A stretch of 40,416 nucleotides of DNA from Deltaproteobacteria bacterium. Its GTDB lineage: Bacteria; Myxococcota_A; UBA796; GCA-2862545. The first letter of the stretch is position 1, and the number at the start of each line of letters is the position of its first letter. The translations under genes were made by a program, and so were the position numbers. The notes beneath the pieces are model-generated. The model saw only the letters and a program-made list of their open reading frames with translations. It ran no database searches and was not told where the DNA came from. Shown piece after piece: positions 13,341 through 18,243 of this stretch. The stretch is from contig REDI01000095.1 in the NCBI GenBank assembly GCA_007693595.1, forward strand, positions 1-40,416, given 5' to 3'.

Positions 13341-13889
13341 GTGGTGCGTGGCCTCTCCGATCTCATCGAACCTCTCCAGCAGCTCCTCCCCCCAGAGGTC
13401 CTGCTGCCTCTACTGGGTCTCGCGCTCCTGGTCGCCGCGCCCGCGTGGTGGCGGAGCGTGGCCGTCCGCCAGATCAAGGGACACCTGCGGCGCGCGGCCC
13501 GAGCCCACAGCGAGGCGGAGCGGGAGCGCGAGATCGAGGGCGCCTTCCGCCGCGCCGGCCATCACGCTCGTCGACTCGTCGACCTGGCGGAGCACGCGGG
13601 TCGGGCCGGGCTTCCGCTGGTCCGTCGAAGAGCGATCGAAGCGCTGGAGTCCTCGGGTAGACTACCCCTAGAGGCGGCTAGACTTCGACGCGCCGACGGC
13701 CCGCCGCCCCCCAAGGTGCGCGACATGGAGGAGGTCAACATCCGGGTCCACTTGCTGATGGAGCGAGAGCTGTGGGCCGCCGCCGAGGAGGTGCTCGACG
13801 AGGCCGAGCGGCGCTTCGCTGGGGATCCTGAGCTGGCCGCCCTGCGCGAAGATTTCAACACCCGGCACCCCGCCCCGGAGGAGCCCTGA
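13341..13889 (+). CDS. membrane-anchored helical protein, unknown function
   Basis: A 182-residue protein with one membrane helix near residues 17-36 (PEVLLPLLGLALLVAAP), followed by a very Arg/Ala/Glu-rich helical region and a C-terminal stretch (about 135-175) that resembles a single TPR-like helix pair. It starts at GTG 13341 or the adjacent GTG 13344; an AGGA lies just upstream and does not decide between them. The stop TGA shares its last base with the ATG of the next small gene (TGATG), so the two are coupled. I recognise no family. The layout suggests a bitopic inner-membrane protein with a cytoplasmic helical domain. Confidence 0.7.
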   Translation: MVRGLSDLIEPLQQLLPPEVLLPLLGLALLVAAPAWWRSVAVRQIKGHLRRAARAHSEAEREREIEGAFRRAGHHARRLVDLAEHAGRAGLPLVRRRAIEALESSGRLPLEAARLRRADGPPPPKVRDMEEVNIRVHLLMERELWAAAEEVLDEAERRFAGDPELAALREDFNTRHPAPEEP

Positions 13890-14053
13890 TGCTCAACGAC
13901 GAGATCCGCCGCCAGATCGATGACATCGCCACCGAGATCGACCTGCTGGTCTTTCGACTGGAGCAGCCCCCCACCTCTGTGGACGAGCGCCAGGACCTCC
14001 AGCGGAGCTTGGAGCGCCTCGTGCGCGCGCTGCGCGAGTTGGCAGACCGCTGA
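13889..14053 (+). CDS. 54-residue acidic helical protein
   Basis: A short open frame beginning MLNDEIRRQIDDIATEIDLL and ending LRELADR. It is strongly amphipathic, with hydrophobic residues at heptad-like spacing broken by one Pro-Pro-Thr-Ser turn near residue 28, so it looks like a helical hairpin or coiled coil. The ATG overlaps the upstream stop by one base (TGATG), good evidence that it is translated through coupling. Base use matches its neighbours. It is too small to assign. It probably partners the membrane-anchored helical protein encoded just upstream. Confidence 0.65.
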   Translation: MLNDEIRRQIDDIATEIDLLVFRLEQPPTSVDERQDLQRSLERLVRALRELADR

Positions 14054-14074
14054 CAGGGCTCCAGGCCCCCCGAG

Positions 14075-14122
14075 CCACTACATCTTGGGGTCCACGCGTC
14101 GCCGACCCCCCACATGATGGGG
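14075..14122 (+). promoter_or_regulatory. two putative NrdR boxes
   Basis: Box 1 (14075-14090, CCACTACATCTTGGGG) matches 11 of 16 positions of the NrdR consensus acaCwAtATaTwGtgt, including all six strongly conserved positions. Box 2 (14107-14122, CCCCCACATGATGGGG) matches 8 of 16 and five of those six. The boxes are identical to each other at 12 of 16 positions and are 32 bp apart start to start, about three helical turns, which is the usual arrangement. NrdR represses ribonucleotide reductase genes, and the next gene downstream is nrdJ. The consensus is recalled, not searched. Confidence 0.6.
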
Positions 14123-14157
14123 TCGAAATGGATCCATCGCAGGGTGTTTACATTGTC

Positions 14158-14214
14158 TTGACATTTCTAGGCTATGGACAACTACTTTGACACAAGATGC
14201 TAAAGCAGTAGAAG
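14158..14214 (+). promoter_or_regulatory. candidate sigma-70-type promoter(s) for nrdJ
   Basis: Two perfect TTGACA hexamers occur in the AT-rich island, at 14158-14163 and 14187-14192. The second is followed after 16 bases by TAGAAG (14209-14214), a 4/6 match to the -10 consensus. The first has TACTTT after 19 bases. They lie just downstream of the NrdR-like boxes. Without a mapped start this is only a plausible reading. Confidence 0.3.
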
Positions 14215-14524
14215 AACAATCACTTTTGAATGAATGTGGTATATCGAGCTGTGGATAGTCAGTGGACATCTGACCCTACAAGCGGAGCCGTCCTGTGGAG
14301 ATCTGGTGGACGACCCGGGGTCACCTGCGGAGCAGTCATGGAAATCTTGACCGTTCTTCAAAAAAACTCTCATTGGTACATATCTCCTACCGACTCCCTG
14401 TGCTGCATCCTAGTTTTTCGAGGCCGAACACACCACAGGCCCTGCGGAAGTATCCTCAGAGGCTCCTGGCTGGTACGCTCTGGTGAGACATTGCCCTCGC
14501 CCCCCGATCCTCGATAGGGTCCAA

Positions 14525-14618
14525 GGGCGCCACGGGGCACCCCCCTCAAAGCCCCGTCGCCGGCCCCATCCTACCGACCGGCTCCCACCGCGTCTCGCCC
14601 ATCTCGGCGAGCGAGACG
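14525..14618 (+). promoter_or_regulatory. two strong hairpins in the nrdJ leader
   Basis: Hairpin 1 pairs ACGGGGC (14532-14538) with GCCCCGT (14551-14557) around a 12-nt loop, and can be extended by GGCG (14525-14528) with CGCC (14558-14561) past a two-base bulge. Hairpin 2 pairs CGTCTCGC (14591-14598) with GCGAGACG (14611-14618). An alternative inner hairpin, CTCGCC (14595-14600) with GGCGAG (14606-14611), competes with it. No U-run follows either. They could be a leader switch, an mRNA stability element or simply GC-rich structure. Confidence 0.4.
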
Positions 14619-14676
14619 GGCTCGTGCGCTCTCCTGACCGACTCCTAACTCCCACCCGCCCCCATCAGAGGTCCCC

Positions 14677-17600
14677 ATGAAGGTCCAGCGCCGCTTCACC
14701 GCTCAACTCGACAGCCCTTACGACGGCCTTGTGTTCGAAGAGCGCACCTCGCAGATCCGCAACCCCGATGGCTCCCTGGTCTTCGAGTCCCCCGCCGTGG
14801 TCCCGACCGGCTGGAGCCAAGTCGCCACCGACATCATCGCGCAGAAGTACTTTCGCAAGGCCGGCGTCCCCGCCGCGACCAAGACCGTCCCCGAGAAGGG
14901 CATCCCCGCCTGGCTCCAGGGTCGCATCGCCGACGAGAAGGCCCTGGCTGCCCTGCCCGAGGGGGAGCGCTTCGGGGGCGAGACCGACTGCCGCCAAGTC
15001 TTCGACCGCCTGTGCGGGTGCTGGACGTACTGGGGCTACAAAGAGGGTCTCTTCGACACCGAAGACGACGCGCGCGCCTTCTTCGACGAGCTGCGCTTCA
15101 TGATGGCGCGGCAGATGGCCGCGCCCAACAGCCCGCAGTGGTTCAACACCGGACTGCACTGGGCCTATGGGATCGACGGCCCCGCCCAGGGCCACAAGTA
15201 TGTCGACCCCGCCAAGGACAAGGTCGTCGACAGCTCGAGCGCCTACGAGCGCCCGCAGCCGCACGCCTGCTTCATCCAATCCGTCGCCGACGACCTGGTC
15301 AACGAAGGCGGCATCATGGATCTCTGGCAGCGCGAGGCGCGCCTGTTCAAGTACGGATCGGGTACCGGCACGAACTTCAGTCAGATCCGCAGCGGAGGGG
15401 AGCCGCTCTCAGGCGGCGGACGTAGCTCGGGACTCATGAGCTTCCTCAAGATCGGCGACCGCGCAGCGGGCGCCATCAAGTCCGGGGGCACCACCCGGCG
15501 CGCTGCGAAGATGGTCTGCCTCGATCTCGACCATCCAGACATCGAGGAGTTCGTCAACTGGAAGGTCCGCGAGGAACAGAAGGTCGCCGCGCTGGTCACC
15601 GGCTCGATGCTCAACGAGCGGGCGGTCAACGGCATCCTCAAGGCCTGCCAGCAAGGCGAGGGTGAGCACCGCTTCGATCCTCGCCACAACGCGGATCTAG
15701 CCGAAGTCCTCCGCGAAGCCCGCCGCAATCGGGTCCCCGACAACGTCCTCTTTCGCTCGATTCAGCTCGCGCGGCAGGGGGTGACCGAGGTCGCCTTCGA
15801 CACCTACAACACCGACTGGGACAGCGAGGCCTACAGCACCGTCTCGGGGCAGAACAGCAACAACTCGGTCCGCATCCCGGACACCTTCATGGAGGCTGTG
15901 CTCCGTGACGAGTCCTGGGATCTCATCCAGCGCACCGACGGCGGAGTGAGCCGCTCGATGCCCGCCCGCGAGCTGTGGGAGCAGGTCAGCTATGCAGCTT
16001 GGGCGTGCGCCGACCCCGGTGTGCAGTTCGACACCACCATCAACGACTGGCACACCTGCCCCGAGGGCGGGCGGATCAACGCCTCAAACCCGTGCTCAGA
16101 GTACATGTTCCTCGATGACACGGCCTGCAACCTCGCCTCGCTGAACCTCATGCGGTTCTACGACACCGACAACGCCACCTTCCAGCTCGATGACTACGTC
16201 TACGCGACCCGCCTCTGGACGACGGTGCTCGAGATCAGCGTCGCCATGGCCCAGTTCCCGAGCGAGGCGATCGCCCGGCTCTCCTACGACTACCGGACTC
16301 TCGGCCTCGGCTTCGCGAACCTCGGCGCCATGCTCATGGTCATGGGCGTGCCCTACGACAGCCACCAAGGTCGCGCCATCGCCGGCGCCCTCACGGCGGT
16401 GCTGTGCGGCGAGGCCTACGCCCAGTCCGCACGACTGGCTGCCATCAACGGTCCCTTCCCGCGTTTCGCGCCCTCGCGCGATTCGATGCTGCGGGTGATC
16501 CGCAACCACCGTCGCGCGGCCTGGTCCGCCCCGAACAGCGCCTATGAGGGCCTCTCGGTCCGCCCCGTCGCCCTCGACGAGACCCACTGTCCCCCCGAGC
16601 TGCTCACCGCCGCCCGCAAAGCCTGGGACGAGGCGCTGGAGCTCGGCGAGAAGCACGGCTACCGCAACGCGCAGGTCACGGTCATCGCACCCACCGGCAC
16701 CATCGGCCTGGTCATGGACTGTGACACCACCGGAGTCGAGCCCGACTTCGCCCTGGTGAAGTTCAAGAAGCTCGCCGGCGGCGGTTACTTCAAGATCATC
16801 AACCAGTCGGTCCCGCCCGCCCTGCACAAGCTCGGCTACACCGATGCTCAGATCGAAGACATGATCCACTACGCCACCGGCAAAGGCACCCTGCGCGGCG
16901 CGCCCAGCGTCAATCACGAGCGGCTCGCGGGGCTAGGCTTTACCGAGCAGATCCTCGACAAGGTCGAGGCCCAGCTCAAGAGCGCCTTCGACATCAAGTT
17001 CGTGTTCAACAAGTGGACCCTCGGCGAAGACTTCTGCACCAAGGTCCTCGGCCTGACCCCCGAGCAGCTCACGGATCCTACCCTCGACCTACTCGCTGAG
17101 CTCGGCTTCACCCGTGCCGAGATCGAGGCCGCCAACGCCTATGCGACAGGCACCATGACTCTCGAGGGAGCGCCCGCCCTGCGCGATGAGCACCTGCCGA
17201 TCTTCGACTGCGCCAACCGCTGCGGCCGCACTGGAGAGCGCTTCATTGCCTACGAGGCTCACATCCGCATGATGGCCGCTTGCCAACCCTTCATCTCGGG
17301 CGCGATCAGCAAGACCATCAACATGCCGAACGAGGCGACCATCGAAGACGTCAAGGAAGCCTACATGCTCTCGTGGCGCCTCGGCCTGAAGGCCAACGCC
17401 CTGTACCGCGACGGCTCCAAGCTCAGCCAGCCGCTCTCTTCGGTCGCGGCCACCGACATCTTCGCCGCTCTCGACGATGTCGACGAGCCACAGCAGGCCG
17501 CCCCTGTCGCCGCGAGCGGCAAGGTGCGCGAGGTGACCGAGCGGGTCGTCGTGCGCTACCTCTCCAAGCGCCGCCGCCTGCCCGACCGCCGAAAGGGCTA

Positions 17601-18243
17601 CACCCAGAAGGCCATGGTCGGGGGCCACAAGGTCTTCCTGCGGACGGGCGAGTACGAGGACGGGGAGCTCGGCGAGATCTTCGTCGACATGCACAAGGAA
17701 GGAGCCGCCTTCCGCTCACTGATGAACTCCTTCGCCATCGCGATCAGCATCGGCCTGCAGCACGGCGTGCCGCTCGAGCGCTTCGTCGATCAGTTCGTGT
17801 TCAGCCGGTTCGAGCCCAACGGCATGGTCCAGGGCAACGACCGCATCATGATGGCGACCTCGATCATCGACTACCTCTTCCGCGAGCTGGCGATCACCTA
17901 CCTGGGCCGCGACGACCTCGCGCACGTCTCCGAAGAGGACCTCCGACATGACGCGGTGCTGCCCAACGAGGAGCCCCAGTGGGTCGAAGAGGAAGAGATC
18001 GCGCAGACCACCCACGTCTTCGGGGCGGCGATCGACGTCGATGAGGCGCCGGTGGCCGAGGCCACCCCCGCGCAGCCCACCTCGCCCAAGGCTCGTCCGA
18101 GCGCTCGCATCCAGGCGATTCTCGACGCCAAGGCGCAAGGCTACGAGGGCGAGGCCTGTGGGGAGTGTGGGGCGCTCACCTTGGTGCGCAACGGCGCCTG
18201 CATGAAGTGCATGAGCTGTGGGGCGACGAGCGGCTGCTCCTGA
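14677..18243 (+). CDS. nrdJ: adenosylcobalamin-dependent (class II) ribonucleotide reductase
   Basis: A 1188-residue class II reductase, which makes deoxyribonucleotides with a cobalamin-generated thiyl radical and needs no oxygen. The redox Cys198 (HACFIQS), the thiyl cysteine Cys473 in NPCSE and its redox partner Cys484 in CNLASLNL are present, the last two at the expected spacing of 11. NSNNSVR (about 393) and APTGTIGL form other active-site parts. Two copies of a YATG-x2-TL-x-GAP motif lie around 735 and 825. A TSCPD-like domain (about 950-1075) and a C-terminal cysteine-rich ribbon (CGECG...CMKCMSCG) follow, as in the long NrdJ subfamily. The ATG is supported by AGAGGT. A strong terminator-like hairpin follows the gene. 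Confidence 0.97.

Follow-up and report, generated by a model that had tools for sequence, protein, structure and literature searches.

The nrdJ gene of this Deltaproteobacteria bacterium, which encodes a ribonucleotide reductase (RNR) large subunit assigned to class II in an earlier note on this DNA, lies in the window, the whole stretch of 40,416 nucleotides that was analysed. In a profile search of the 4.9 Mb genome with PF02867, nrdJ was the sole large-subunit RNR match, and therefore controlling nrdJ would control the dNTP supply of the cell. The nrdJ ORF is 1188 aa long; the open frame holds 1201 aa and begins just 13 codons before 14677, which fixes the start codon to within about 39 bases on the upstream side. 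About 620 bases of intergenic DNA separate nrdJ from a preceding 54-aa ORF, and the landmarks of the region are as follows:

13889 to 14053, same strand as nrdJ: 54-aa ORF preceding nrdJ, from the ORF list
14145 to 14244, no strand: 100-base GC minimum of the 40 kb (34%), from the GC scan
14677 to 18243, forward strand: nrdJ, ribonucleotide reductase large subunit, an ORF

Stretches similar to the 54-aa ORF, at 42-50% identity by tblastn, are present at six other nrdJ loci (L003, L004, L009, L026, L027 and L029), and because of these matches the ORF probably encodes a conserved small protein. The AT-richness that the earlier note had reported for the start of the leader is pronounced, with the GC content of the 100 bases at 14145 standing at 34% versus a window mean of 67%. 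The GC minima of the 40 kb begin at 14145, 14112 and 14122 for windows of 100, 150 and 300 bases, respectively, and in sliding windows GC below 45% is confined to 13950-14700. The minimum thus falls near the upstream end of the intergenic region, while the sequence just before nrdJ has a C-rich, G-poor composition. Two TTGACA motifs, as the note had said, are found here (14158-14163 and 14187-14192).

The NrdR box is a 16-bp element with the consensus ACACWATATATWGTGT. A pair of such boxes at 14075-14122, overlooked in the earlier note, stands just upstream of the AT-rich DNA:

14075 to 14090, no strand: NrdR box 1, CCACTACATCTTGGGG, 21.8 bits, the best single site in the 40 kb
14107 to 14122, no strand: NrdR box 2, CCCCCACATGATGGGG, 13.8 bits, the second-best site in the window

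Scored with a matrix trained on other genera only, with this genus left out, and whose consensus (ACACAATATATTGTGT) is the textbook NrdR box, the pair ranks first in the window at 35.5 bits; the next pair sharing neither box reaches 0.3 bits, and 200 shuffles of the 40 kb reach at most 7.3 bits. With the same matrix, a pair of 27.2 bits was found upstream of nrdJ in G001, the one same-genus genome compared, in which nrdJ is 85% identical over its first 300 aa. A 48-bp pattern allowing up to three mismatches has a single match in the 4.9 Mb genome, at 14075-14122, and its reversed control has 0 matches; written with the boxes of the window in view, this pattern shows uniqueness, not discovery. 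Each of the 28 regions upstream of nrdJ that were compared across the order, that of the window among them, has a pair of NrdR-type 16-bp palindromes spaced 31-33 bp start to start, almost always 32 (a spacer of 15-17 bp); these pairs were chosen as the best fits to a degenerate consensus, and the independent test is the matrix from other genera. In a loose count across a public genome collection, NrdR-type pairs occurred at 43 of 80 mostly distant nrdJ genes.

The two boxes, which are of this consensus and upstream of an RNR gene, are 32 bp apart start to start, leaving a spacer of 16 bp. NrdR spacers of 14-17 bp, commonly 15-16, keep the boxes on the same helix face, and 16 bp is within the tight-binding range (PMC12051234). 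The genome also holds the cognate regulator, an nrdR gene above the TIGR00244 cut-off at G000:C24:144181-144609, whose product has a Zn-ribbon and an ATP-cone and, as read from its protein sequence, retains D15, R17 and the RRRR motif, residues that touch DNA in the structure of S. coelicolor NrdR (PMC9110341). In these respects the locus resembles the NrdR operators of known RNR operons (S. coelicolor nrdRJ and nrdAB; E. coli nrdHIEF, nrdDG and nrdAB), whose paired palindromic boxes share this consensus and are likewise set apart by the common 16 bp, in genomes that also encode an NrdR with D15, R17 and RRRR. It differs from them in that the boxes of this genus are placed about 555-602 bases ahead of the start codon, where they overlap no recognisable core promoter. 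Box 1 is 602-614 bases before the nrdJ ATG in this genus, with the pair at about 555-614, versus 110-330 bases from box 1 to ATG in other relatives. In relatives outside the genus, promoter hexamers are enclosed by the pair or lie next to it; at or after the boxes of this genus, such hexamers are absent or weak. What is unusual at this nrdJ is the roughly 550 bases separating the operator from the start codon, together with a conserved block, block C, described below.

Several features of other nrdJ loci were seen in the course of the comparison. A LexA-like palindrome lies upstream of the NrdR boxes in L005 and L029 (GAACATGTGTTC) and in L030 (GAACGTGTGTTC), though not in the window, and because of these palindromes SOS control of nrdJ is suggested for those three relatives. 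In L028 (G010:C526:7538-10975), the nrdJ match falls in three pieces within one stop-free frame of 2854 codons, a split that RNR inteins would give, and a 9-base unit, GTCGAGTCC, is repeated in tandem about five to six times between the NrdR boxes and nrdJ. The record CAMCWU010000012.1 (L051), titled Klebsiella pneumoniae, carries an nrdJ among the closest to that of the window and is apparently the same contig as the same-family G017:C12; it is probably a mislabelled MAG.

A second class of site lies in and after the AT-rich stretch. The site scan returned two near-matches to the DnaA box TTRTCCACA in the intergenic region of the window and zero exact boxes:

14173 to 14181, reverse strand: DnaA-box-like TTGTCCATA, one mismatch to TTRTCCACA
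14250 to 14258, reverse strand: DnaA-box-like CTATCCACA, one mismatch, 427 bases before the ATG

In G001 an exact TTGTCCACA occupies the place equivalent to the first, and another stands at -427, matching the second. Over the 28 nrdJ upstream regions, 63 sites within one mismatch of TTRTCCACA were observed versus 3.9 expected, about 16-fold above the shuffled expectation, and exact sites numbered 15 versus 0.2 expected. The density of DnaA-like sites is about 2.25 per 700 bases upstream of nrdJ, compared with 0.08-0.15 in control DNA that is mostly coding. Their position varies, as they lie downstream of the NrdR boxes in this genus and mostly upstream of them in relatives. Modulation of the nrdJ promoter region by DnaA is a reasonable expectation from this enrichment, and we hold it with less assurance than the part assigned to NrdR.

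E. coli nrdAB offers a close parallel, as there too DnaA-box-like sites and an AT-rich stretch adjoin NrdR boxes before an RNR gene; here, however, the gene is nrdJ, and the DnaA-like sites, each one mismatch off, follow the NrdR boxes on the downstream side. In E. coli, nrdAB is controlled by DnaA sites (PMC8203912), and a title in the reference list of that review states that an AT-rich upstream sequence is needed for the cell-cycle control of nrdAB (PMC8203912).

The earlier note had offered three suggestions for the same DNA, namely a new RNA element, a small RNA gene and an AT-rich promoter region, and had drawn two strong hairpins toward the gene:

14532 to 14557, forward strand: first hairpin, predicted; not kept in G001
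14597 to 14621, forward strand: second hairpin, predicted; not kept in G001

The hairpins can indeed be drawn at these positions, but overall the folding does not stand out and both are absent in G001. The last 177 bases (14500-14676) fold with a z of -1.25, with 22 of 200 shuffles equally good, and 14190-14676 folds neither better nor worse than its shuffles (z 0.01). Some 80-base windows reach z of -2 to -2.8, a range to be read against random windows drawn from this sequence, about 3% of which reach -2. In an Rfam scan of the whole window, no family reached its gathering score, and the single match in the region at E<5 was a chance one (E 3.3). As the note had stated, there is no cobalamin riboswitch at nrdJ: RF00174 was not matched. 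Such a riboswitch would be plausible before an adenosylcobalamin-dependent enzyme and occurs twice elsewhere in the genome (G000:C8:71578-71787 and G000:C89:39409-39526), but not here; because of these two copies, its absence at nrdJ does not come from a lineage lacking it.

Comparison with G001 showed the leader to be conserved only in two short blocks and the start-codon region, so that nearly the whole of it lacks the conservation among close relatives whose absence, the earlier note had said, would refute its reading. A DNA-level search with the leader in 57 relatives yielded just short matches, apparently due to chance and mostly GC-rich. The conserved blocks and the candidate promoters are:

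14147 to 14182, forward strand: block B, TTTACAT-N4-TTGACAT...TGGACAAC, containing a DnaA-like box as well as the first of the TTGACA motifs; 75% identity over 36 bases in G001
14187 to 14214, forward strand: possible core promoter TTGACA-N16-TAGAAG, from a relaxed scan; not kept in G001
14491 to 14520, forward strand: possible core promoter TTGCCC-N16-GATAGG (or N18-TAGGGT), a weak consensus match kept in both species
14509 to 14547, forward strand: block C, CCTCGATAGGGTCCAAGGGCGCCACGGGGCACCCCCCTC; 79% identity over 39 bases in G001 (E 2e-6)

The score of block B was equalled in 2 of 150 shuffled pairs and that of block C in 0 of 150. A coding origin for block C was considered and set aside, as the differences from G001, in an alignment read by eye, show no preference for third codon positions. 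A short stem common to both species can be drawn in block C, and this, with the drawable hairpins and the conservation of block C between the two species of the genus, is what speaks for a new structured RNA, a metabolite- or dNTP-sensing leader or attenuator that would switch alternative hairpins in the nrdJ 5' leader. We consider such an RNA very improbable, as the leader overall folds no better than shuffled sequence, the ATG-proximal hairpins are not kept even within the genus, Rfam gave no match, and the two sequences are too few for a covariation test. An RNA element in this leader is accordingly unsupported.

An insertion in the genus ancestor, placing either a small mobile element or a small RNA gene between the NrdR boxes and nrdJ, could explain why the region is some 300-400 bases longer than in other genera and why its composition differs from that of the remaining window. 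Against this, the sequence is present as a single copy, no second having been found in the genome, and has no Rfam match, which also tells against the small RNA gene of the earlier note; moreover, the AT-richness is much weaker in G001, where the DnaA-like sites are kept in place. Such an insertion is likewise very improbable. The promoter region is the one suggestion of the three to find support, from the NrdR pair and the DnaA-like sites.

The site at which transcription starts bears on how this promoter region would be arranged. A strict sigma-70 scan found no promoter, including at the TTGACA motifs, and a terminator scan found none. The leader of about 450 bases that the earlier note had drawn from those motifs is therefore conjecture, since the relaxed match at 14187-14214 is not kept in G001. 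The weak resemblance of block C to a core promoter points to another arrangement, a variant of NrdR and DnaA control in which the distal region acts at a distance, in tandem with a second promoter located in block C (14491-14520), from which the leader would be about 150 bases long. TTGCCC-N16-GATAGG aligns with TTGATC-N16-GATAAG, its counterpart in G001, at the best-conserved block, and this promoter stands at a distance from the ATG similar to that seen in family relatives for the promoters overlapped by NrdR boxes. However, the consensus match is weak (7-8 of 12), and NrdR would have to act from some 400 bases upstream of such a start, versus its usual proximal arrangement; tandem control is a serious possibility, falling somewhat short of an even chance. 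A more radical version, in which block C (promoter plus initial-transcript hairpin) would be a new, genus-specific element split from the NrdR/DnaA region, with NrdR acting some 400 bases upstream, seems unlikely. The nrdJ transcript may start just after the boxes (14150-14221), near the promoter-like block at 14491-14530, or at both, and the transcript start with block C is the sole part of the region that could hold something new.

The most satisfactory explanation, in which we have high confidence, is that this is a promoter region through which the sole RNR gene is repressed by NrdR and probably modulated by DnaA. Weighing against it are the distance of the boxes, the weak or missing hexamers, and DnaA-like sites that carry one mismatch and lie downstream of the boxes. 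By this account NrdR, the dATP-sensing RNR repressor, would occupy the 14075-14122 boxes at high dATP and thereby silence nrdJ; as dATP falls, NrdR would release the boxes. DnaA, the replication initiator, would probably tune nrdJ, as at E. coli nrdAB, through the sites that lie within the AT-rich stretch and beyond it.

In summary, a suspected new riboswitch gives way to a familiar, testable mechanism in which the sole RNR gene would be controlled at the DNA level. Both dATP, through NrdR, and probably the replication state, through DnaA, appear to control the only RNR gene of the cell. A limited literature search found no description of an NrdR pair with DnaA-like sites before nrdJ; their occurrence there across much of the order is a modest extension of the E. 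coli nrdAB arrangement to class II RNR.
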